Of a DNA stretch of 64,000 nt, positions 17,497 to 35,054 are shown in pieces. Origin of the DNA: Neobacillus mesonae (GTDB taxonomy: Bacteria > Bacillota > Bacilli > Bacillales > Cytobacillaceae). The DNA is taken from contig NZ_KV440949.1 of assembly GCF_001636315.1 (NCBI RefSeq), forward strand, positions 708,203-772,202. The letters run 5' to 3'. Under the pieces are notes generated by a model. It did no database searches and was not told the origin of the DNA. It saw only the letters and a list, made by a program, of their open reading frames with translations. Each line of letters opens with the position of its first letter. The stretch's first letter is position 1. Position numbers and translations under genes: made by a program.

Positions 17497-18258
17497 CTAT
17501 TCCTCCATTTTCGCTCTTAATTTTTCTTTATATTGCTCAACCGTAAGTTTCATTTTTTCAAACGATACCCCCTTATAAAGTAAATAGGAGTATAGAATGG
17601 TAAAGGCAGTGATTGTCACCAGCAATGCAACTAGCATCGAATCCTCAATTCCGCCGCCACTTTGAGATGGACCGTCGCCAAACACAATTGGATGGAATTT
17701 TGTCTGCCACCAGCGAATCGCAAAGAAGACAATTGGTACGTCAGCAAAGCCAATGATTCCGAATACGGCTGCCAGCCTTGCTTTTTTATCCCACACACCA
17801 TCCATTTGCCGAATCATGATATAGGCAATGTAGATGAAAAATAAAATTAAAGTTGTAATTAAGCGCGGTTCCCATACCCACCACGTATTCCAGGCAGATC
17901 TTGCCCAAATTGGACCCGTTGTTAACACGATTATAGTGAACACGACACCAATCTCTGCGGAAACATAGGCATATATATCAAAAATACGTTTCCGTTTTAT
18001 CAAAAACAAAATACTAAACACAAATGTCACAAAAAACGCCATAAACGCAAGCCAGGCGGAGCTTACATGAAAATAGAAGATTTTCTGTGCTGCCCGCATT
18101 GTTTTTTCTTCCGCCGCATAGATAAAGATAAAATAAAGCGACATGAGCATGGAAACAACTGTTGCTCCGAATAAAGCTTTTGATAAATTGGCGCTGCCGG
18201 AACCTGCCAACGGGGCGACGGGAAGCACCTGTTTCTCACGTTCGAGATTCATACTCAT
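17497..18258 (-). CDS. ccmC: haem exporter/handling protein CcmC
   Basis: Member of the CcmC/CcmF/CcsA haem-handling family that loads haem onto CcmE. The 253-aa protein has six membrane segments and the tryptophan-rich WWD-type motif WNTWWVWEPRLIT near residues 126-138, flanked by His residues (FYFHVSSAWLAF near 58-69 and KFHPIVFGDGP). It follows ccmB by 2 bp and precedes ccmD by 3 bp. The first about 28 residues form a soluble N-terminal extension. Confidence 0.92.
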   Translation of the reverse strand: MSMNLEREKQVLPVAPLAGSGSANLSKALFGATVVSMLMSLYFIFIYAAEEKTMRAAQKIFYFHVSSAWLAFMAFFVTFVFSILFLIKRKRIFDIYAYVSAEIGVVFTIIVLTTGPIWARSAWNTWWVWEPRLITTLILFFIYIAYIMIRQMDGVWDKKARLAAVFGIIGFADVPIVFFAIRWWQTKFHPIVFGDGPSQSGGGIEDSMLVALLVTITAFTILYSYLLYKGVSFEKMKLTVEQYKEKLRAKMEE

Positions 18259-18260
18259 AC

Positions 18261-18941
18261 TTATACCTCCAGCACAAAATCAATTAATAAGAAACAAACC
18301 ACAAAAAAGATGACATCATAAGCAGTAATTAATTGGATCCACGCTAGTGCACTTGAAAACTTCTCCATGTTCGTCAAAATAATTCTGGTAGCTTGAACCA
18401 CCCCAATGAGGATTGGGGTAGTAATCGGAAATAGTAATAACGGCAAGAGCATTTCACTGCTTTTGGAATTTGCCGCGAGTGCCGCCAAAAACGTTCCAAT
18501 TGTGATAAACCCAAAGCTTCCAAGAAAAATGACAACTAGAAAATAGGGCAGGCTTCCAACAAATTTAAAATCAAATAACAGAAATAAAAATGGAATGGAA
18601 ATCACTTCCACCACTAGAATCATCGTAAAATTGGCAAGAAATTTCCCCAAATAAATACTGGCAGCCTCCATAGGTGCAACCAATAGCCCCTGCATCGTAT
18701 CATTTCGCTGTTCTGAAATAAACGAGCGGTTAAGACCTAATATCCCGGCAAACACAATGATAACCCAGATAACTCCCGGTATGACTGCCTTTGTGGTGTT
18801 GTTTGACGGGTCAAAAGCAAAGCTGAAAACAACAATTACAAGGGCAGCAAAAATGATTTGGGTCACAAGTATTTGTTTTGTTTTTAATTCAGAATACAAA
18901 TCTTTTTTTGCGAGCAGGACGGCTGTACGAAAGACATTCAT
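18261..18941 (-). CDS. ccmB: haem exporter ABC permease CcmB
   Basis: Six-segment membrane component that pairs with CcmA. The 226-aa sequence has the CcmB hallmarks AVLLAKKDLYSELKTKQIL at the N-terminus, RSFISEQRNDTMQGLLVAPME near 74-94 and the P-rich LLLFPITTPILIG segment near 166. Its start overlaps the ccmA stop by 4 bp (ATGA-type coupling). Confidence 0.92.
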   Translation of the reverse strand: MNVFRTAVLLAKKDLYSELKTKQILVTQIIFAALVIVVFSFAFDPSNNTTKAVIPGVIWVIIVFAGILGLNRSFISEQRNDTMQGLLVAPMEAASIYLGKFLANFTMILVVEVISIPFLFLLFDFKFVGSLPYFLVVIFLGSFGFITIGTFLAALAANSKSSEMLLPLLLFPITTPILIGVVQATRIILTNMEKFSSALAWIQLITAYDVIFFVVCFLLIDFVLEV

Positions 18942-19642
18942 GATGCTCCCTCCACCTGCAGCTGATATTTTTTCGAAACAAATCCAAGATTTTGATTTTC
19001 AATATAGAAATCATCAGCAATTCTGCCGTTTTTCAGAATGATGATTCGATCACAAATTTCGGCTGCCTGTTTGAAATCGTGCGTAACCATTAAGGTAGTC
19101 GTTCCCTTTTCTTTTATAGAAATTATCACATTATTTAGAATTGAGATTGCCCCTTGATCCAAACCGGTATGCGGTTCATCCAGCAGTAAAACTTCCGGTT
19201 CATGGATAATAGCCCGGGCGATGGCAATTCTCTGAATCATTCCTCGTGAAAAGTTCTTTACCGGTTCATTTAAAAAGAAGGATAATCCTACTTCTTTCAC
19301 CAGCCTTACAGCCCGTTGCTCTACATCATTAATACCGTAAATATTACCGAAGAAGACGAGATTTTCGATAGGTGAATAATGATCATAAAGCAGACTGGAA
19401 TGGGGAAGGTACCCTATCATTTTTTTGATTTGGAGATGGTTTCTTTTCCATTTCAAACCATTAATTGTGACAAGTCCCGATGTTGGTTTAATTAAGGAAG
19501 CAAGCACTTTTAGAAGCGTACTTTTTCCTGCCCCATTCGGTCCGAGAATAGCAACGGTTTCCCCTTTATGGATGGTAAGGTCAATGCCGCGTAAAATCAG
19601 CTTATTATCTGCCTGCTTCGTCAAGTTCTTAATTTCTATCAT
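18938..19642 (-). CDS. ccmA: haem exporter ATP-binding protein CcmA
   Basis: ABC ATPase of the CcmAB complex, whose ATP hydrolysis releases haem-loaded CcmE. Walker A is GPNGAGKST near residues 34-42, Walker B VLLLDEPHTGLD near 151-162, and the H-loop lies in TLMVTHDF. The signature sequence reads FSRGMIQRIAIARA rather than LSGGQ, a divergence common in CcmA-like ATPases. 234 aa. Confidence 0.9.
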   Translation of the reverse strand: MIEIKNLTKQADNKLILRGIDLTIHKGETVAILGPNGAGKSTLLKVLASLIKPTSGLVTINGLKWKRNHLQIKKMIGYLPHSSLLYDHYSPIENLVFFGNIYGINDVEQRAVRLVKEVGLSFFLNEPVKNFSRGMIQRIAIARAIIHEPEVLLLDEPHTGLDQGAISILNNVIISIKEKGTTTLMVTHDFKQAAEICDRIIILKNGRIADDFYIENQNLGFVSKKYQLQVEGAS

Positions 19643-19665
19643 TTTTTTGAACCTCCCCTCCGCTT

Positions 19666-20658
19666 TTAGTCAATGAAATCCCGTAACTTTAATTTCACTT
19701 GGACTAAATGCTGCTTATAGGCATCAAGCTTGGCCAGATATTCAGCTTCTGTAAGCTTTCCATCACCGAAGGTATCTTCCAATTCAATAATTTTATCCAT
19801 TATCGCTTTTTGCTTTGCCATCAATAATTTGAATGCCCTTTCTTCCTGATCGGCTCCCAGTCTTTCCTCTCCCAATCGCGCTTTTCTCCTGAAATAGGCG
19901 TAATAGGAAATACCAGCAATGATAATGGCACTTAAAATAATCAAAAATACATGCGGATTAAACCTGTGAAAAGGTGATTGCGCCCACATTCTTAAATGAC
20001 CTGGATTATGAAAGGCCGGAGCGGTATGGGTCACGGTACTATTACTGCCAGCAGTGCTTGCAGTCTGGTTTTGTTTACCGCTGTCGGCAGCGGGCTGCAC
20101 ATCTTTGTTATATACGATAGTAAAGGTTTGTTTCGGCATTATACCTTCAATGCTATATCCCCAATAATTTTGGTCATCAAATTTGAATAGACCTTGATTA
20201 GTAGACTGAATCCCCTTAACTTCAATACTGCCTCTGCCCTCAGGTACGAGAATTTGCATGGTCTGTACCGGATAGTCGACGGTCAGCTTTATTTCCTGCT
20301 CCTTTGGCATGCGATAGCTGTATGGAAGTACCATCGTTTGATTTCCAAGGATTGGCGTAGTAGTAATAAAACCTTTATCAACTTGTTTAAACGCGATTTT
20401 ATTATCTAAAAAATTTAAATCCTTTGCTTCATTCGGTAGGGTTACATGCAAAACAGCTTCGCCGCTTCCCTCTCCTGTATAGTCCTTTTCCGACTGATTG
20501 GTGTAATTCACCATGTTCATCATATTTGTCGAACCATCCTCAGCTGCACTGACCACGAGATAATGCACGTCAACGGACACCTTTGAATCCCCCGCCGCTA
20601 ATCCGTTGACAGGTATTAGCAGCAATCCGAGGAGGAGTATAGTGATTTTCCTCATCAC
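19666..20658 (-). CDS. uncharacterised exported membrane protein of the ccm operon
   Basis: I do not recognise a named family. The 330-aa protein has a signal peptide (residues 1-22, ITILLLGLLLIPVNGLAAG), a beta-rich extracellular domain to about residue 190, a Ser/Thr/Asn-rich linker, one membrane segment near 236-255 and a cytoplasmic helical tail with IIELEDTFGDGKLTEAEYLAKLDAYK split over about residues 290-317. The tail resembles the short helical pair seen in CcmI-like proteins and in the two other accessory proteins of this operon. It overlaps the gene upstream by 4 bp. A role in holding or routing apocytochrome or haem is inferred from position. Confidence 0.75.
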   Translation of the reverse strand: MMRKITILLLGLLLIPVNGLAAGDSKVSVDVHYLVVSAAEDGSTNMMNMVNYTNQSEKDYTGEGSGEAVLHVTLPNEAKDLNFLDNKIAFKQVDKGFITTTPILGNQTMVLPYSYRMPKEQEIKLTVDYPVQTMQILVPEGRGSIEVKGIQSTNQGLFKFDDQNYWGYSIEGIMPKQTFTIVYNKDVQPAADSGKQNQTASTAGSNSTVTHTAPAFHNPGHLRMWAQSPFHRFNPHVFLIILSAIIIAGISYYAYFRRKARLGEERLGADQEERAFKLLMAKQKAIMDKIIELEDTFGDGKLTEAEYLAKLDAYKQHLVQVKLKLRDFID

Positions 20659-21032
20659 TTTCCTTCCCCCTTTTTATTTTTGTAGTTCTTCATCTCCGCG
20701 GCGATTTCTTTTTCCACTTCAGCCATTATGTCGCTGTCAACGGCACTCTTTGCCGCTTGCTCTTCATCCTTCATAATTCTCGTGATTTCAGCCTCATATT
20801 GTTTCTTCAAATGTTGATAATCCACCGCCGATATTTTATCCATTTTGTACTCAAACTCCAGCTCATTCAAGGTTGTTAACAATGCCTCTTTCGTACTTGT
20901 GAACTCTTGTCCGCTTTTGTGAAAATGAAAGTTCAATGAACCCAGCTTAAAAAATGGCGATAGGATCAAAAACAAACAAACAAGTGTCAATGCGGCGGTA
21001 AAAATAAGCGACATGATTGAAATATCTTGCAT
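20655..21032 (-). CDS. CcmI-like short membrane protein
   Basis: 125-aa protein starting at the ATG 21030-21032, which has AGGATG 8 bases upstream; a GTG 9 bases further up sits inside the ribosome-binding site. One N-terminal membrane segment (about residues 7-27) is followed by a helical cytoplasmic part containing LNELEFEYKMDKISAVDYQ, which resembles the N-terminal portion of CcmI/CycH (membrane helix, then ELE..x..G.ls..dY). It lacks the periplasmic TPR domain of Gram-negative CcmI. It lies 12 bp after ccmH and overlaps the next gene. Confidence 0.7.
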   Translation of the reverse strand: MQDISIMSLIFTAALTLVCLFLILSPFFKLGSLNFHFHKSGQEFTSTKEALLTTLNELEFEYKMDKISAVDYQHLKKQYEAEITRIMKDEEQAAKSAVDSDIMAEVEKEIAAEMKNYKNKKGEGK

Positions 21033-21044
21033 TATAGTCACATC

Positions 21045-21548
21045 CTACAGATACTTTTTGCGTTCTTCATCAATAATGGAAGAAATAATCTCATCTTCAA
21101 CTTCATCCTCAGTTTTTTTAATTTCAGCTTCCGGTTCATCGATACTTTTTCGTTTCACCCATTTACGAATGACTAAGGCTATCCCCGCTGCAGCAGCGGC
21201 AATCGCCGCGAACGGCAGAATCCAGGCCGTTAAACTAAAGCCGCTTTTCTCCGGTGAAGTTAAGATTTCTTCCCCGTAAATATTGATATAATACTTGCGG
21301 ATTTTATCTTTATCCCAGCCTTTATTCATCATCTCGACTAAATCTTTTTTAAAGTCTTTTGTGAGATTACATGTATTAGGGTCACATTCATAATGATCTT
21401 GGCCGCAGCCGCATGTACAGGCAAACTGAGAAGCAACCGCCTTAAATTCAGCCGACTTGTAGTCAAATTCCTTACCCTCCGCACGAATAAACGAACCTTG
21501 AAAGATGAACAACGCTAAGAGGAGCCCAAGATATATTTTTATTTTCAT
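21045..21548 (-). CDS. CcmH-type cytochrome c maturation thiol protein
   Basis: The start is the ATG 21546-21548, with AGAGGTG 7 bases upstream; 167 aa. A signal peptide (residues 1-22) precedes a helical domain with the Cys cluster ACTCGCG (C43, C45, C47) plus C54 and C59, then GWDKDKIRKYYINIYGEEIL, the CcmH core, and one membrane segment near 105-126. Classic CcmH has LRCxxC; this CxCGC variant differs. CcmH with CcmF performs thioether ligation of haem to apocytochrome. It begins 1 bp after ccmF ends. Confidence 0.85.
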   Translation of the reverse strand: MKIKIYLGLLLALFIFQGSFIRAEGKEFDYKSAEFKAVASQFACTCGCGQDHYECDPNTCNLTKDFKKDLVEMMNKGWDKDKIRKYYINIYGEEILTSPEKSGFSLTAWILPFAAIAAAAAGIALVIRKWVKRKSIDEPEAEIKKTEDEVEDEIISSIIDEERKKYL

Positions 21549-21549
21549 A

Positions 21550-23532
21550 TTAAGACACCTCTTTACGGACTCCAGTGTATCTTGGAGTAACATTTCCATA
21601 TTTGCCGTTCCAAACGGCGAACAATGCACCAATTACAATCATGACCGACCCAACCCATAACCAATTCATCATTGGATTTACCTTAACAACAAAGGTTGCC
21701 TTGCCGTCATCTTCCCATGCGCTTAACACAATGTATAAATCTTCTTTTAACGATGAAATAATTGCGACCTCAGAGGAGGGCTGTTCCCAATTTCCGTAAA
21801 AAACCTTTTCCGGCTGGAAGGTTCCTAGTTTTTTGCCATTCTTAAAAACTGTTAAGTCCGCATAAACAATATCATTGATGCCTTCCCGTTTTTGGTCTAA
21901 GCGATCATAATTAAGCCTATAATCCTTTAACTCGATAGAGCCCCCTAGTGGAACGGTTTTCATTGTTTCCATGTCGAAGTTTTGCGAACCGATGATTCCC
22001 ATAGTGATAAACGCAATACCTAAATGAACAATATATCCTCCGTAACGGCGGCGGTTTCGAATCATTAACCGATATAAGGCCGTGAGAGGCTCCTCCTTCG
22101 TCATTTTTCGCCGCGCTTTTACTCCGGAGTAAAACTCCAAAAAGTGGGTAATGAATAATAGAATAATAACCCCATAGCCAATGACGGCCCAGGCTTTTTG
22201 AATCCCCAATACAATCATTAACACCATTCCAACGACGGCTAAAATCGCAGGAATCATAAAATTTTTCTTTAGATTTTTCACCGTTGACCTTTGCCATGCA
22301 AGAAGCGGACAGACAGCCATAACAAACATCATTGATAGAAGAATTGGAGCCTCCACTTTATTGAAGAATGGCAGCCCGACAGTAACCTTTGTACCGCGCA
22401 CCGCTTCCGATACTAAAGGAAAAATGGTTCCCCAAAACACCGCAAAGGCAGCCCCTACAAGTAACAGGTTGTTAATTAAAAAGCTGCTTTCTTTGGACAC
22501 AAAGGAAGTAAATTCCCCTGCACTTCGTTTAAGCAGGTTATATCTGCTCATCAGTACATAAAGTGCGCCTATGACAGCGATTGCCATAAAGATAAGGAAG
22601 TATAATCCTAAATTCGAGTTGGCAAAGGCATGAACAGAAGTAAGGACACCGCTTCGCACCAAGAAAGTTCCAAATAAAGTTAAAGCATAGGAAACGATGA
22701 TTAAGCTGATATTCCAAATCTTGAGCATATTTTTCCGTTCTTGAATCATCACCGAATGCAGAAATGCTGTCGCTGTCAACCATGGCATAAAGGAAGCATT
22801 TTCCACAGGGTCCCATGCCCAATAACCGCCCCAGCCAAGCTCAACATAGGCCCATTGTCCGCCAAAAATGTTTCCTAGACTTAAGAATAACCAAGCGATA
22901 ATCGTCCACCGCCGGGTCATTTTAATCCAGAAATCATCGACGTTTTTCAAGATCAAAGCCGACATTGCAAACGCAAAAGGAACCGCTAGACCGACATAAC
23001 CAAGATAAAGAGTAACCGGATGAATAATCATGCCGGGATTTTGAAGCATCGGATTCAAGCCTTTTCCTTCCATTGGAACTTGATCCAATAAAACAAACGG
23101 TTTGGCAACAAATGATAAAATAAAGAAAAAGAACACCGCATTAGCCATAAGGATTGCCGAAATATATGGAACCATCGGGTTTCCCTTCATTTTCCTTGAA
23201 AAAGCAACCATCAATGCATACAAGGTTAAAAAGAAGGTCCAAAGTAATAAAGAACCGGCATTTCCAGCCCATAAAGCAGTGAGTTTATAAATCACCGGGA
23301 GCTCGCTGCTCGTGTAGTCATATACATATTCGTATTGAAACTGAGATGCTGCCAGCAAATAAAACATTGAAAGTATCGCCAGCGCGGCGCAAATAAATAA
23401 GGAAATCATGGCGCCCTTGCCGCTGTTTACCAGCTTTTGATTTTTCGTACTAATTCCAAGCGTCATAATTAGAAGTGAATAAACTGCAATTGCAAATCCT
23501 ATATAAATAGTTGCATTGGCAAATAAATACAT
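21550..23532 (-). CDS. ccmF: cytochrome c haem lyase CcmF
   Basis: 660-aa polytopic protein that carries out haem attachment together with CcmH. It has about 15 membrane segments and the WWD haem-binding domain WGGYWAWDPVENASFMPW near residue 228-245, with His-containing segments on either side (GMIIHPVTLYLGYVG near 167 and TAFLHSVMI near 255). The C-terminal extracytoplasmic domain (about 505-640) ends in a membrane helix. It is the diagnostic gene of System I cytochrome c biogenesis. Confidence 0.94.
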   Translation of the reverse strand: MYLFANATIYIGFAIAVYSLLIMTLGISTKNQKLVNSGKGAMISLFICAALAILSMFYLLAASQFQYEYVYDYTSSELPVIYKLTALWAGNAGSLLLWTFFLTLYALMVAFSRKMKGNPMVPYISAILMANAVFFFFILSFVAKPFVLLDQVPMEGKGLNPMLQNPGMIIHPVTLYLGYVGLAVPFAFAMSALILKNVDDFWIKMTRRWTIIAWLFLSLGNIFGGQWAYVELGWGGYWAWDPVENASFMPWLTATAFLHSVMIQERKNMLKIWNISLIIVSYALTLFGTFLVRSGVLTSVHAFANSNLGLYFLIFMAIAVIGALYVLMSRYNLLKRSAGEFTSFVSKESSFLINNLLLVGAAFAVFWGTIFPLVSEAVRGTKVTVGLPFFNKVEAPILLSMMFVMAVCPLLAWQRSTVKNLKKNFMIPAILAVVGMVLMIVLGIQKAWAVIGYGVIILLFITHFLEFYSGVKARRKMTKEEPLTALYRLMIRNRRRYGGYIVHLGIAFITMGIIGSQNFDMETMKTVPLGGSIELKDYRLNYDRLDQKREGINDIVYADLTVFKNGKKLGTFQPEKVFYGNWEQPSSEVAIISSLKEDLYIVLSAWEDDGKATFVVKVNPMMNWLWVGSVMIVIGALFAVWNGKYGNVTPRYTGVRKEVS

Positions 23533-23556
23533 TTTGTCACCTTCTTGTGTTTACCT

Positions 23557-24009
23557 TTATTTTTCTTTCGGTGGTTGATTCAGCTTTTCTTTATGTGTTT
23601 CAGGGTCATAGTCTTTCATATCTTTCCCTTCATATTTAGAAGGACATCTTGTTTTAACCGTTTCTGCTTTAAAGGTATCTTTAACGGTTGGAGAGCCTTG
23701 GAGAATCGTAATCACACCTTCGGAAAAGTTATCAGGCTTTGGGCCATTATGGATCACATGCATAATATTACCGTCACTGTCTTTGACATCGAATTTCAAT
23801 TCGATTTTGTCAGGATTCCACTTAATGGAGTCTTCAATCAGCAATCCCTCTACGGTAACAAAATCATCCTTGTACTGCTCTTGGCTGGCTAACAGCTGTT
23901 TCATCGTCAGTTCAATGCCGCTCGAACCCGGGGTCGCAGCCATTAACAGAAATATAATGGCGCCAGCAATAATAAAACTCCCCAATAAAACCATCGTGTT
24001 CTTTTTCAT
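23557..24009 (-). CDS. ccmE: haem chaperone CcmE, Cys variant (CxxxY)
   Basis: Carries haem from CcmABCD to CcmFH. I choose the ATG 24007-24009, with GGGGTG about 6 bases upstream; a GTG at 24018 lies in that site. The 150-aa protein has one membrane anchor (about residues 6-24) and an OB-fold with VTVEGLLIEDSIKWNPD and HNGPKPDNFSEGV. The haem-binding position reads CPSKY (C122, Y126), so Cys replaces the His of the common HxxxY motif. CxxxY CcmE proteins are known in some sulfate reducers and archaea. The tail is Lys/Pro rich. Confidence 0.88.
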   Translation of the reverse strand: MKKNTMVLLGSFIIAGAIIFLLMAATPGSSGIELTMKQLLASQEQYKDDFVTVEGLLIEDSIKWNPDKIELKFDVKDSDGNIMHVIHNGPKPDNFSEGVITILQGSPTVKDTFKAETVKTRCPSKYEGKDMKDYDPETHKEKLNQPPKEK

Positions 24010-24022
24010 TCCAATCACCCCG

Positions 24023-25084
24023 TTAAATTAATTTTTTCATTTCCTCTTCATATGTTTCTTGGTCCATTTTGCCTGTCAGCAGTTTTTTACGCAGTTCCTT
24101 TTTAGCCTCTGTGGTATCTTTTTTAATTTCAGTTTTCCTTGAAAAAGACTTCTGTTCATGTTGTTTTTTCTGCCCAGACCCCTTCCCCGTTTTTGAAGGA
24201 TTTGCTTTAAGCCCTAAATAAACAAAGATCCCGGCGAGAATGATTGCCATTCCGATAATAGAGGCGCCGCCTAAGCCAATCAGCGGACGATTTGAATTAT
24301 CCGTTGTACTTGATGTTCCCTTTGTTATTTGGTCAGTAGCCGAACCATTAACCCCCGTATGGTTCTCATCCTTTGGCACCTGCACTTTGCTCATTGCTTC
24401 CATTGAGGACTCCGTACCATCCTTCTTGTAAGAGAAGGAATACTTTAATGTCTCTCCGGCTTTAATATTCTTGTATTGGTAGAAAAAAAGATCTTCTCCA
24501 TATTCATTTTTTGAGCTTTCCTGCGCTTTTGGCTCCATTTGAATTTCTTTAGCATTCATGGGTGCATAATAAATGACATCCAGCTGTTCTATGCTGCTAT
24601 TATTCTTAAACTCGTATGTAAATCTTTTTCTATCCTTTACATCAATTGTTTTGGTGTAATATTCAATCACAAATTTGTAACTCTCATTGTTTTTAATCGG
24701 CTTTTCCGGCTTCCAGCTTATGATGCCATTTTCTTTGTCCACATCATAAGGGCGTTGAACTTCCGGTTTATTTTCCTCCGGGAATTCGGCTACCAAAAAG
24801 GCTTCAAATCCTTTTTCCCCAGCTGGAACAGCTACTTCAATTTTCCCGTCATAATCTTGACCGCTCTTATTGATGATTGTTCCGTATTCACCGATAAGTA
24901 ATGAGGGAATATCTCTTGACGGCCAGTCCTCTGGATAGTCAAATTCCGGCATGACTTGGATCTGCATTTCCTTGATTGGAAACTTTTCCGCAGAATAAGC
25001 GGATGCTGCATCGGCTCTAGGAATCAACAAATTTGACAAAAATAATGCAATAACAAATACGGCCGACCACTTCTTTTTTCGCAT
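24023..25084 (-). CDS. uncharacterised exported membrane protein of the ccm operon
   Basis: The start is the ATG 25082-25084, with AAGGAGG 7 bases upstream; 353 aa. A signal peptide (residues 1-27, ending RADAASA) is followed by a beta-rich extracellular domain, a Ser/Thr/Asn linker, a membrane segment near 280-301, a Lys-rich stretch and a short tail KKELRKKLLTGKMDQETYEE. Organisation parallels the 330-aa protein at 19666-20658: signal, beta domain, linker, single helix, and a helical tail with a G-K-hydrophobic-x-x-x-x-Y pattern. No family name recognised; a role with cytochrome assembly is inferred from the operon. Confidence 0.75.
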   Translation of the reverse strand: MRKKKWSAVFVIALFLSNLLIPRADAASAYSAEKFPIKEMQIQVMPEFDYPEDWPSRDIPSLLIGEYGTIINKSGQDYDGKIEVAVPAGEKGFEAFLVAEFPEENKPEVQRPYDVDKENGIISWKPEKPIKNNESYKFVIEYYTKTIDVKDRKRFTYEFKNNSSIEQLDVIYYAPMNAKEIQMEPKAQESSKNEYGEDLFFYQYKNIKAGETLKYSFSYKKDGTESSMEAMSKVQVPKDENHTGVNGSATDQITKGTSSTTDNSNRPLIGLGGASIIGMAIILAGIFVYLGLKANPSKTGKGSGQKKQHEQKSFSRKTEIKKDTTEAKKELRKKLLTGKMDQETYEEEMKKLI

Positions 25085-25282
25085 AGTAATCCTCCTTAAC
25101 CCTTCAGCCACATAATGAAAGTGCTAATTTTTTACTATAGTCCTCTTTGAAATAAATAATAATCGTAATCGATCGCTTATGGCCGCTGGACTCTTGAACA
25201 TTTTGTTAACCGATGAAAATCGTTACTATTTCGACAAAAATTAACCACAAAATGTTCACATTTTCTAATTGTGGAAATAAGT

Positions 25283-25327: not shown

Positions 25328-25981
25328 TTATTTGTGTTCTAATGAGCGGATATAGCTTACAATATCGCTAATATCCTGCTTCTTCAATTGACGGGCGCCT
25401 TCCAGTCCTTTTAGGGACGGCCCCATTCTGGTTTCTTCCCGCCCATAGGCTGTGGTAATCCAAATTTGCCGGTCTGATGTATACTTTAAATATTGGGGAT
25501 TTGCCAGGGCTGTACCCATTTTTATTTTTCCCTCTCCGGCCTCGCCATGGCAGGAGAGACAGTATAAATTATATTTACCCCTGCCCTGGTCTGGATCACC
25601 TGCTATTACATTTGGTGCCTCAAAAGAAATCTTTTCAGTCTGCCAATGTCTTATGAACACAACGAGTTTATGTATATCCTCATCTAACAAGCTGGTGCCA
25701 TATGCATGCATATCCGTATCTTTTCTTCCGAACTTGACATAATTATATAAATCTTCATCTGATACAGAACTTAAAAAATGTTGATTATTGATGGCTGTTC
25801 CGGCTCGTTTCCCTTCACCTTTTCCAGTTTCTCCATGACAGGCAAGACAATACTGAAGATATAGTTTTTCTCCCGCTGCAACAGCCTTTGATTTTTTGCC
25901 GTCAATAAGCTCGCCATTACTAATAGCAAAAATGACGATGAACATAACAAGAATATAGCTGCCGATTAAAATTTTTCTCAT
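25328..25981 (-). CDS. membrane-anchored dihaem cytochrome c
   Basis: 217-aa extracytoplasmic electron carrier. A membrane anchor (residues 4-21) is followed by two cytochrome c domains, with haem motifs CLACH (C45-H49) and CLSCH (C141-H145), each followed by GE.G.G typical of class I cytochromes. Candidate axial Met residues include those in TDMHAYG and ETRMGP. AAGGTGAG lies 8 bases before the ATG. Its start lies 17 bp after the end of the read-through frame of the upstream lipoprotein gene, so the two look co-translated. It is an obvious client of the ccm genes. Confidence 0.9.
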   Translation of the reverse strand: MRKILIGSYILVMFIVIFAISNGELIDGKKSKAVAAGEKLYLQYCLACHGETGKGEGKRAGTAINNQHFLSSVSDEDLYNYVKFGRKDTDMHAYGTSLLDEDIHKLVVFIRHWQTEKISFEAPNVIAGDPDQGRGKYNLYCLSCHGEAGEGKIKMGTALANPQYLKYTSDRQIWITTAYGREETRMGPSLKGLEGARQLKKQDISDIVSYIRSLEHK

Positions 25982-25998: not shown

Positions 25999-26445
25999 TT
26001 ATTTTGGTTCAGGTGTTGGAGTCGGTTCCCCAAAGTCTTCATATTTCTTTGTAATATACTCGTAAATTTTTTTAGGGCTTTTTCCATCAACATGCATTTG
26101 TATCGCCTCCCGGGCGATATTAATACAAACATCTCAAGATATACTCATTGGGTCCCATTCTTCAACAGCGCTATTGTCGCCGAAGTGGTCAATATAGCAA
26201 TCTAAATTACTTTTATGTCCATCCTGTGCATAACAGCCGCAATAACAAGGAACATTTGCAACCACTTCAGGATAGTTAGAAACCATAATATAGGTTTCTT
26301 TAATTTTGTCTGAGGAATTTAGGACATAATCCGGCAGCGGTTTGTGTTTTTTATCGAGTGTTACATTCGCCTTGTTCGAGCTGCAGGCTGCCGCAATTAG
26401 AACCATCGTTACGCAAAGGATCATTAACGAGAAAAACTTTTTCAT
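25999..26445 (-). CDS. PCYCGC-motif lipoprotein with in-frame UGA (candidate selenoprotein)
   Basis: Seen: from the ATG 26443-26445 (GGAGGGG upstream) the frame encodes a lipoprotein signal with lipobox LIAAAC (C21) and the motif PCYCGC (C67, C69, C71), then C83. It meets TGA at 26134-26136 (codon 104) and continues without another stop for 44 codons to TAA at 25999. The continuation reads DVCINIAREAI, then VDGKSPKKIYEYITKKYEDF and a PTPTPEP tail, which resembles the C-terminus I recall for PCYCGC-family lipoproteins, where the position of the TGA is Cys in a CxxC. A hairpin at SECIS distance follows. Inference: UGA is read as selenocysteine, giving a 148-aa protein with a UDVC redox motif. 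Otherwise it is a truncated 103-aa protein or a pseudogene. Confidence 0.8.
26097..26129 (-). promoter_or_regulatory. bacterial SECIS-like hairpin
   Basis: Downstream of the TGA at 26134-26136: lower stem UUUGU (26125-26129) with ACAAA (26097-26101), a 6-nt asymmetric bulge on the 5' side, upper stem AUCGCC (26113-26118) with GGCGAU (26102-26107), and apical loop CGGGA (26108-26112). The loop starts 22 nt after the UGA, and its second base is G. These features fit the general bSECIS model (loop 16-37 nt from UGA, G in the first two loop positions). Confidence 0.7.
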
Positions 26446-26555: not shown

Positions 26556-26605
26556 AAGTAAAAAAGCCTTAGTCCAAATACGAATGATCTGGACTAAGGC
26601 TTTTT
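26556..26605 (-). terminator. intrinsic terminator after efp
   Basis: AAAAAGCCTTAGTCCA (26561-26576) pairs with TGGACTAAGGCTTTTT (26590-26605). The minus strand then continues into further T-rich sequence. Confidence 0.92.
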
Positions 26606-31494: not shown

Positions 31495-33909
31495 TTATAG
31501 TTTCACTTTCTGTAGCCTTAACGCATTTAAAACAACGGATACGGAACTGAATGCCATCGCTGCTCCTGCTAACCATGGGGCTAAAAAGCCGAGTGCAGCA
31601 ACCGGGATGCCCAAAGAATTATAGGCAAGGGCCCAGAAGAGATTTTGTTTAATATTGGCGATTGTTTTCTTACTCATAAAAATGGCATCGGCGATACTGT
31701 TTAAATCACCGCGAATAAGGGTGATATCAGCAGCCTCCATCGCCACATCCGCACCGGTGCCAATGGCCATCCCAATATCAGCAACAGCCAGTGCCGGAGC
31801 ATCATTTATTCCATCGCCAACCATTGCCACTTTTTTGCCTTGAGCCTGGAGCTTCTTGATTTCTTCAGCTTTTCCTTCCGGCAGTACTTCCGCAATGACA
31901 TGTTCAATACCAGCCTGTTCAGCAATTGCCATTGCTGTTTTCTGATTATCACCGGTAATCATGATAACATCCAGCCCCATTTTTTGGAGGCGTCTGATGG
32001 CTGCTTTCGACGTGATTTTAATGGTGTCCGCTACCGCCACTGTACCGGCAAACTGACCGTTAATCGCTGCCAGCATAGCCGTCTTTCCGGCACGTTCTAA
32101 ACCGTCCATTTTGGAAAGTGCATTCGCAATTGGAACATTATGTTGACTCATTAGTTTTCTAGTACCAACAAGGATTTCTTTTCCATCAATCACAGCTCTT
32201 ATTCCAAAGCCGGGAATTGCCTCAAATTCGGTTGCATTTTTTAAAGCTATGCCTTTTTCCTTAATCCCTTGAACAATTGCTTGGGCCAGTGGATGCTCTG
32301 ATTGCTTCTCAGCAGAACCCACCAAGGTTACAAAGTCATTTTCAGTAAAATTTTTTTCAACAAAGATGTCAGTTAAAACTGGTGTACCATTTGTAACAGT
32401 TCCTGTCTTATCTAATACGACTGTTGAAATGCGGTGGGTCATTTCCAAATGTTCGCCGCCTTTGAAGAGAATTCCAAATTCCGCTGATCTTCCTGAACCA
32501 GCCATAATTGACGTTGGCGTTGCCAAACCTAATGCACAAGGGCAGGCAATAACAAGGACAGCAATTAATTTTTCTAGAGCTTCCGGAAAATCACCAGGCG
32601 AAATGACGAAATACCAAATAATGAAGGTTAAAACCGCCAGACCAACGACGATTGGGACAAACACCCCGGAAATTTTATCAGCAAGACGCTGGATTGGCGC
32701 TTTAGACCCTTGAGCTTCCTCTACCACTTTAATAATTTGGGCTAATGCCGTATCCCTGCCAACCTTAATCGCCTCAACTTTTAAAAATCCATTTTTGTTA
32801 ATGGTGGCACCGATTACCTCATCGCCAGCTTTTTTATCAACCGGAACGCTTTCACCGGTAAGCATGGATTCATCAATTGCTGACTGACCTTCAATAATTC
32901 TTCCGTCAACCGGGATCTTTTCTCCTGGTTTAATGTGAAGAATATCACCAACAACTACTTCCTCAAGCGGGATTTCCTGTTCCATTCCCCCGCGTTCAAC
33001 AACAGCTGTTTTAGCCTGGAGGCCCATTAGTTTTTTAATTGCCTCTGATGAACGCCCCTTTGCCTTTGCTTCAAACAGCTTTCCTAAAATGATTAATGTA
33101 ATCAGCACGGCACTTGTTTCATAGTACAGTTCAACTGTGTGCAAACTGCCTGAGAGAGACATGATTGATAAATATAAGCTGTAAAAATAAGCAGCAGATG
33201 TACCTAAAGCAACGAGTACATCCATATTTGCGCTTTTATTTTTTAAGGCTTTATAGGCACCAATATAAAACTGTCCGCCAATGATAAATTGGACCGGCGT
33301 TGCCAAAAGCAGTTGAAACCATGGATTCATAAATATATCTGGCACCCAGATGAATGAAGTAAATGAAAAGTGACTAACCATTGCCCACAAAAGCGGTAAT
33401 GATAGTATAGCCGAAAAGATGAATTTTCTCTTTTGCTTTTCAATTTCCTTTTGCCGATGGTCAACCGCTTCTTTTGTATCTTTTTTTATTTGTGCACCAT
33501 AACCTAGATTTTCTACCTTTTTTATAATATCGTTCACGGATAAGGCTGAACCATTAAATTCCACCGTTGCTTTTTCTAACGCCAAGTTCACATTCACTTT
33601 TACAATACCATCAAGTTTATTGAGGCCTTTTTCAATTCTGGCAGAGCATGCAGCACAGGTCATGCCGGTAATATCAAACTCTGCTTTTTCCGTCACCACA
33701 TCGTAGCCTAAGTCCCTAATTTTATTTTCTATATCCTCAACCTTTATTTGCGAAGAATCATATTTAATTGCCGATTTTTCCAAAGCAAGATTTACGGTTG
33801 CTGACTCTACACCCGCAAGTTTATTTAATCCCTTTTCAATTCTAGTGGCACACGCGGCACATGTCATACCGGAGATTTGCAGATTTGTTTCCTTTACATT
33901 TTGAGTCAT
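31495..33909 (-). CDS. copA: copper-exporting P1B-type ATPase CopA
   Basis: Exports Cu(I) from the cytoplasm. The start chosen is the ATG 33907-33909; 804 aa. Two N-terminal heavy-metal-associated domains each carry [14 protein letters not shown] or [14 protein letters not shown]. The transmembrane metal motif is [12 protein letters not shown] near residue 425, the phosphorylation site DKTGT near 465, and the hinge motif [11 protein letters not shown] near 680. Upstream ATG at 33933 lies inside the CsoR-type operator. It follows copZ, the usual copZA order, with a terminator-like hairpin and operator between them. Confidence 0.95.
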
Positions 33910-33924
33910 AAAAGCCAACTCCCC

Positions 33925-33941
33925 ATACCCCATATGGGTAT
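33925..33941 (-). promoter_or_regulatory. CsoR-type operator upstream of copA
   Basis: Palindrome ATACCC-N5-GGGTAT (17 bp), fitting the Cu(I)-responsive CsoR operator pattern TACC-N-GGTA. It lies 15 bp before the copA start. Regulation by CsoR is inferred; no csoR gene is visible in the window. Confidence 0.65.
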
Positions 33942-34319: not shown

Positions 34320-35054
34320 TTACAACAACCAATATGTCAGGGTATCAAAAACTCCTAACAAAATCATGACAATTCCGGCTGTCCTTTGAATGATTGTTCC
34401 AATCCTTCTCCCTTTTTTCATTAAAAGTCCGCTTGCACCAAAATACCATATTAAAAAGATGATCAATAAAACTGGTAATGCTGTACCTAGGGCAAATATG
34501 GATGGAAGGATAAATCCATAGGAACTTGATAACACAACCGGCATTAATGTAACAAAAAATAAGATAAACATCGTCGGGCAAAATGCAAGTGAGAAACTAA
34601 AGCCAAGCATAAAAGAACCAAAAACATTTTCATGCTTATATTCTTTTTTCCCTTTAAACAAGTTGAACGTCCAAGTGAATTTTACTAAACCAAGCATATA
34701 AATCCCAACAATAATTAATAACGGTCCCATCAGCTTTCGCATCCATGGAAAATATTCTGTCAGCTGCTGTTCAATCCCCTTTCCCAGAAGCCAAACTAAA
34801 ACACCCAGCAATGAAAAAGCTGTGATTTTTCCTAATGTAAAACTGAAAACATCTTTCCATACAATTTTCTTTTGAATAGAACTATTTCCGTAAAGAGTAA
34901 TCGCACTAATATTCCCCGTCAGCTGGCATGGGGCAAGTGCGCCGACTACCCCTAAAATAAATGCAAAAGCAAGCGGCCATGATTCTAAATTATTCGCCAT
35001 CGTAAAAAAGGGTTCACTCATGAATGTGCTAATTTTGTTAAATAAATTATACAT
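34320..35054 (-). CDS. CcdA/DsbD-like or TauE-like membrane thiol transporter
   Basis: 244-aa protein with six to seven membrane segments. It has the CcdA-type repeat pattern with Cys in membrane helices: GALAPCQLTGN near residue 40 and FSLAFCPTMFILFF near 157. These resemble the paired APC/CP cysteines of CcdA and ScsB, which pass reductant across the membrane. It lies just upstream of copZ-copA on the same strand, so a role in copper handling or in reducing extracellular thiols is inferred. It could also feed electrons to the CcmG-like protein. Confidence 0.75.
   Translation of the reverse strand: MYNLFNKISTFMSEPFFTMANNLESWPLAFAFILGVVGALAPCQLTGNISAITLYGNSSIQKKIVWKDVFSFTLGKITAFSLLGVLVWLLGKGIEQQLTEYFPWMRKLMGPLLIIVGIYMLGLVKFTWTFNLFKGKKEYKHENVFGSFMLGFSFSLAFCPTMFILFFVTLMPVVLSSSYGFILPSIFALGTALPVLLIIFLIWYFGASGLLMKKGRRIGTIIQRTAGIVMILLGVFDTLTYWLL

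Follow-up and report, generated by a model that had tools for sequence, protein, structure and literature searches.

Does the UGA inside a lipoprotein gene of Neobacillus mesonae end the protein or encode selenocysteine (Sec), and what could such a protein do? The gene, which belongs to the PCYCGC family, lies in a stretch of 64,000 nt (assembly GCF_001636315.1, contig NZ_KV440949.1, positions 708,203 to 772,202 of the forward strand; hereafter the window, numbered from its first letter), on the minus strand from 26445 to 25999, with ATG at 26445-26443, TAA at 26001-25999 and 148 codons ahead of the TAA. Codon 104 (26136-26134) is its sole in-frame UGA. A first-pass annotation made from the sequence alone had proposed a selenoprotein here, and the features on which it leaned, a single UGA in an otherwise continuous 148-codon frame and 17 nt from the TAA to the next ATG (that of a cytochrome c gene, at 25981), were confirmed by the coordinates. 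On comparison with related genes, the UGA very likely inserts selenocysteine, and we consider it probable that this selenoprotein, a predicted surface lipoprotein, serves System I cytochrome c maturation as a selenol/thiol reductase.

Reading frame and hairpin around the UGA

Upstream of the ATG lies a ribosome-binding-type stretch, GGGAGGGG. Translated through the UGA, the gene scores 100 bits with PF13798 (PCYCGC; gathering cut-off 25) over residues 34-147, a match that spans the UGA. The UGA stands at the first Cys of a CxxC motif, as had been proposed: all 24 aligned sequences carry Cys or Sec at position 104 and Cys at position 107. Across 56 sequences C67, C69, C71, H77, C83, C104 and C107 are invariant. 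The AAAC at residues 18-21 resembles a lipobox.

Directly behind the UGA, nucleotides 26127-26093 fold into a hairpin with a minimum free energy (MFE) of -14.6 kcal/mol (z = -2.52 against dinucleotide shuffles), which was equalled by 6 of 200 shuffles, and 29 of 1000 synonymous recodings folded as well as the native sequence. The lower stem starts 6 nt and the apical stem 14 nt after the UGA, and the G at loop position 2 of CGGGA follows at 22 nt. The hairpin therefore folds as described in the first-pass annotation, except that the 22 nt given there for its start is the distance to the loop G. A hairpin just after the UGA with a G within the first two loop bases is what characterizes a bacterial selenocysteine insertion sequence (bSECIS), and the window gene has both. 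Rfam gave no SECIS family match in 26000-26250, only a weak sRNA match.

To follow this hairpin through the family, we used loci L022-L188, which hold 123 distinct family genes; L145 was left out for its unresolved motif. In the remaining 122 genes the first motif position is UGA in 112 and Cys in 10, numbers that give no frequency, since the choice of loci favoured UGA forms. In the apical stem, all 112 UGA genes form the four core pairs (448/448 cells), whereas in the Cys genes 23/40 of these cells are paired and the three inner pairs are formed in 0/10. Among the UGA genes the outer pair varies as CG, AT, TA and TG and the inner pair as CG, GC and AT, i.e. by compensatory changes, and sliding the partner out of register lowers their pairing to at most 210/448 cells. 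Basal stem cells are paired in UGA and Cys forms alike (502/672 and 52/60, respectively), so that only the apical stem is claimed to be conserved. The loop is CGGGA in 77, CGTGA in 32 and CTGGA in 3 of the UGA genes, the last without a G in the first two bases.

A loose hairpin test was positive in 111/112 UGA forms and 3/10 Cys forms, the 3 Cys cases being in another register. MFE z-scores against synonymous recoding averaged -1.68 for UGA forms (36/112 below -2) and -0.30 for Cys forms (0/10); these scores are moderate, and the in-register pairing test is the stronger one.

UGA and cysteine forms and the selenocysteine machinery

The window gene belongs to a group which we call type A, defined by D as the second motif residue in the gene-order, dN/dS (ratio of nonsynonymous to synonymous substitution rates), tree and cytochrome-distance counts, and by a genome-search match with E of 1e-40 or better in the CcmF co-occurrence count; a protein 74-76% identical to the window protein (L084/G034) is type A by the latter definition, not by the former. 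For 80 type-A genes, with saturated pairs excluded, pooled dN/dS was 0.169 in the 36 codons before the UGA (462 pairs), 0.243 in the 44 codons after it (1766 pairs) and 0.211 in the same region outside the hairpin (892 pairs). Thus, the codons downstream of the UGA are under purifying selection.

The same UGA recurs in many other genomes, which excludes an assembly error, an objection that the first-pass annotation had raised itself. Same-genus relatives of the window genome include N. kokaensis and N. niacini, and far outside Bacillaceae a UGA form (UPMC) is found at L148:3667-4044 in a Candidatus Obscuribacterales metagenome bin. The nine Cys forms require five changes, at least three of which are forced by well-supported branches, on a tree of 88 type-A proteins for which the trait columns had been masked; the tree has few columns relative to rows, and since its root is arbitrary we infer the direction from Sec to Cys. 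For eight of these nine Cys forms the genomes were searched, and all eight have selA (the ninth is L138).

The first-pass annotation had proposed looking for the sel genes in the same genome, and they are present: selB (360.7 bits, above cut-off), selA, selD and tRNA-Sec (anticodon tca). The selD gene (L018) has an in-frame UGA of its own in the context KAGUGC, which makes SelD itself a probable selenoprotein. Of 200 genomes searched, the window's own included, 129 had a family match and 126 were classed; G105 (TAG reported) and G167 and G169 (weak matches not listed) were dropped. SelA scored above cut-off in 85/85 genomes with a UGA form, the window's own among them, versus 23/41 with stop-free forms only (Fisher 7e-11; kinship ignored), where the UGA class means one TGA inside the match in the genome-search row and the place of the UGA was checked in fetched loci only. 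tRNA-Sec was above cut-off in 150/200 genomes; read by eye, it is absent from one UGA-form genome, G116, which is 85% complete.

Neighbourhood of the lipoprotein gene

The coordinates of the gene, its motifs and its neighbours are collected in the table below. A terminator-like hairpin follows efp, and hence the lipoprotein gene is probably the first of its unit; the lipoprotein, cytochrome c and ccm genes presumably form a single transcript.

Features of the lipoprotein gene and of the adjoining ccm cluster in the window
Feature	Position	Strand	Basis
PCYCGC-family lipoprotein gene, read-through frame	25999..26445	-	PF13798 match, translation, 17 nt to next ATG
In-frame UGA, codon 104, first position of U-D-V-C	26134..26136	-	aligned with Cys in homologues
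bSECIS-type hairpin; apical stem 26119-26101, loop CGGGA 26112-26108	26093..26127	-	fold; apical stem conserved, compensatory changes
Lipobox-like AAAC, residues 18-21	26383..26394	-	Cys21 invariant in alignment
PCYCGC motif, residues 66-71	26233..26250	-	translation, PF13798 match, alignment
Terminator-like hairpin between efp and lipoprotein gene	26561..26605	-	consensus scan only
Cytochrome c, two CxxCH motifs, next gene downstream	25328..25981	-	PF13442 and PF00034, two stretches each
Open reading frame (ORF) between cytochrome c and ccmE	24023..25111	-	no Pfam match above cut-off; place kept in related loci
ccmE	23557..24018	-	PF03100 above cut-off
ccmF	21550..23532	-	PF16327 and PF01578 above cut-off
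ccmH variant, CTCGCG and two further Cys replacing LRCxxC	21045..21548	-	PF03918 above cut-off; no NCBIfam match
ccmI-like ORF	20655..21041	-	TIGR03142 20.3 bits, below cut-off 29.3; no Pfam match
ORF without family match in ccm cluster	19666..20658	-	place kept in related loci
ATP-binding cassette (ABC) ATPase, ccmA by position	18938..19642	-	TIGR01189 130 bits, just below cut-off 131.6
ccmB-like	18261..18941	-	TIGR01190 62.4 bits, below cut-off 156.2
ccmC-like	17497..18258	-	PF01578 above cut-off; TIGR01191 below cut-off

For the ABC ATPase, other ABC models outscore TIGR01189, yet stay below their own cut-offs. The CTCGCG and the two further Cys of this group's CcmH are invariant in 25 aligned sequences.

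The arrangement extends beyond the window. A cytochrome c match starts within 200 nt after 60/78 type-A genes, and CcmF is found in 73/74 genomes with close homologues of the window protein, the exception being G034, versus 13/126 others. A member of the genus without type A (G047) has a sub-threshold CcmF fragment. The window gene itself adjoins a ccm cluster. Gene order and co-occurrence thus strengthen the link to cytochrome c assembly that the first-pass annotation had suggested, while the biochemical function is one that we infer.

Six loci (L125, L132, L133, L134, L135 and L136) carry tandem pairs of type-A UGA genes, and in none of these loci is the cytochrome or any ccm gene of the window matched. 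The window genome has a System II ResB gene (L189) alongside its System I ccm genes (17497-24018). A DsbD_2-type membrane protein, a possible electron conduit to the outside, is encoded at 34320-35054 on the minus strand, not far from an ORF (31495-33933) that looks copper-ATPase-like on inspection.

Possible function and relation to known families

In proteobacterial System I, reduction and resolution of the apocytochrome disulfide are done by CcmG and CcmH. We propose that SelB and tRNA-Sec would decode the UGA at the hairpin and that the lipoprotein would be anchored on the outer face of the membrane, where the PCYCGC thiols and the U-x-x-C pair could open the disulfide in the CxxCH motif of the apocytochrome by reduction or, as an alternative step, could resolve the mixed disulfide with the cluster's CcmH. 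More tentatively, a lipoprotein selenoenzyme distantly related to CcmH may replace CcmG as apocytochrome reductase in System I Bacillaceae, several lineages having apparently switched to Cys and lost the hairpin. Among the scanned proteins of the cluster none was recognized as CcmG/TlpA-like, the rest of the genome not being searched for one. With CcmG and ResA the window protein would share the proposed keeping of apocytochrome cysteines in the reduced state outside the membrane; in contrast to them it has no thioredoxin family match, and its predicted model is nearly all helical.

The closer comparison is with CcmH (PF03918; 2HL7, 2KW0), the System I apocytochrome thioreductase, whose gene is present in the window's own cluster. 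Like CcmH, the window protein is mainly helical in prediction and has a Cys motif that follows helix 1 of the domain, and there is a remote profile match between the two; unlike CcmH, it has CxCxC and UxxC instead of LRCxxC, a lipoprotein-type anchor instead of a transmembrane helix, and selenocysteine. CcmH has its LRCxxC-type motif in the loop that connects helices 1 and 2 (PMC3884852), and in the predicted model of the window protein this place is occupied by PCYCGC, the LRCxxC-type motif itself being absent. PF03918 did not match the window protein, for which PF13798 was the sole match at E up to 1. Searched against sequences of solved structures, the PCYCGC profile gave five weak matches, of which CcmH 2kw0 (E 0.69) came last, after saposin A, ferredoxin II and two repeat proteins of large size; the profile of the cluster's CcmH matched 2kw0 at E 0.015. 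Weak as it is, this resemblance to CcmH suggests that apocytochrome c may be the substrate of a selenol/thiol reductase here.

Two points weigh against our proposal. When the Cys columns are masked, the CcmH profile signal of the PCYCGC family is almost gone, so that we do not take homology to CcmH as demonstrated; and 44 random codons would be free of stops with a probability of about 0.06, which makes the evidence from a single sequence modest. The UGA might be a plain stop, or the gene might be decaying, and the product would then be a lipoprotein of 103 residues. Database entries largely have this form: among the 120 listed of 271 homologues, 99 end at the UGA place, 20 are long with CxxC and 1 is apparently frame-shifted (ends judged by C-terminal letters, not DNA; P0004 of the 120 is the window protein or nearly so). 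However, the comparative evidence lifts the observation far beyond chance. With a conserved protein behind the UGA (dN/dS 0.24), a core stem that is intact in every UGA form and lacks its inner pairs in every Cys form, the full Sec machinery in the genome and the complete association with selA, a stop or a decaying gene is highly improbable.

Supposing that Sec is inserted, the protein could still serve elsewhere. It might bind or chaperone copper or a heavy metal for respiratory enzymes through thiolate/selenolate ligands, and not act as an apocytochrome reductase; the conserved CxCxC, His77 and Cys83 would then hold the metal, and U-x-x-C would keep it reduced. The seven residues invariant over 56 sequences would suit this role, genes of the family's other type lie within 1 kb of cadA-/arsR-like genes in 6/27 cases (L052, L151, L153, L159, L161, L163), and at L154:4195-8531 a UGA gene of that type adjoins oxidase subunit and YtkA-like genes, which hints at a respiratory or metal role for the other type. 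Yet type A goes together with ccm genes and a cytochrome c, and family profile scans gave no metal-binding match on the window protein, so we regard metal handling as unlikely. The ccm linkage would also arise if the selenoprotein were an electron-transfer or repair partner of the diheme cytochrome, which needs ccm, and had no role in heme attachment. In favour of such a partner, the cytochrome is the nearest gene, at the short distance given above; the remote similarity to CcmH points instead to a maturation step, and we hold a partner role to be doubtful.

The first-pass annotation had stated that Sec was undescribed in the PCYCGC family, and here it must be corrected. A passage of a 2026 review (PMC13188914) lists a ‘CYCXC family protein (hypothetical protein OS_HP4), PF13798, UxxC’ and attributes OS_HP4 to a paper of 2007 about the deltaproteobacterial symbiont of a gutless worm; OS_HP4 with UxxC, no domain given, appears in a passage of PMC9312934 as well, and NCBIfam names NF041379 (OS_HP4_CYCXC equivalog) ‘CYCXC family (seleno)protein’. 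The window protein has its Pfam family and the Sec motif UxxC in common with OS_HP4/NF041379; it differs in scoring 69.5 bits, below the curated cut-off of 90, and in being part of a lipoprotein subfamily of Bacillaceae that is linked with ccm genes. Besides the type-A gene, the window genome has a PCYCGC gene of the other type with its own UGA (FGUGVC; L052:7513-8004, plus strand, C1 about 5485512-5486003); it scores 77.9 bits with NF041379 and is divergent from arsR- and cadA-like genes (names from reading ORFs).

In passages of PMC12013277 (deep-Sep), PMC2398784 and PMC1088965 no PCYCGC/OS_HP4 family entry was found. By titles and passages, PMC13188914 was the only item on selenoproteins in the searched literature that mentions PCYCGC or PF13798, and the literature search returned no paper joining Neobacillus and selenoprotein. 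Among the matches listed for CcmH with selenocysteine and cytochrome c maturation, for Bacillus selenoproteins and for Neobacillus ccm genes, no title was relevant to this question. Thus, Sec in PF13798 is already known, and the Bacillaceae lineage and the tie to System I cytochrome c maturation are new as far as these searches go; with the family already listed and the ccm tie not found in print, the gene adds a variant to an established selenoprotein family.

The database counts suggest that many Bacillaceae proteins of the PCYCGC family are cut short in databases. If our proposal is true, selenium would have a role in the assembly of respiratory cytochromes, and the hypothetical selenoprotein family OS_HP4/PF13798 would gain a concrete, testable pathway.
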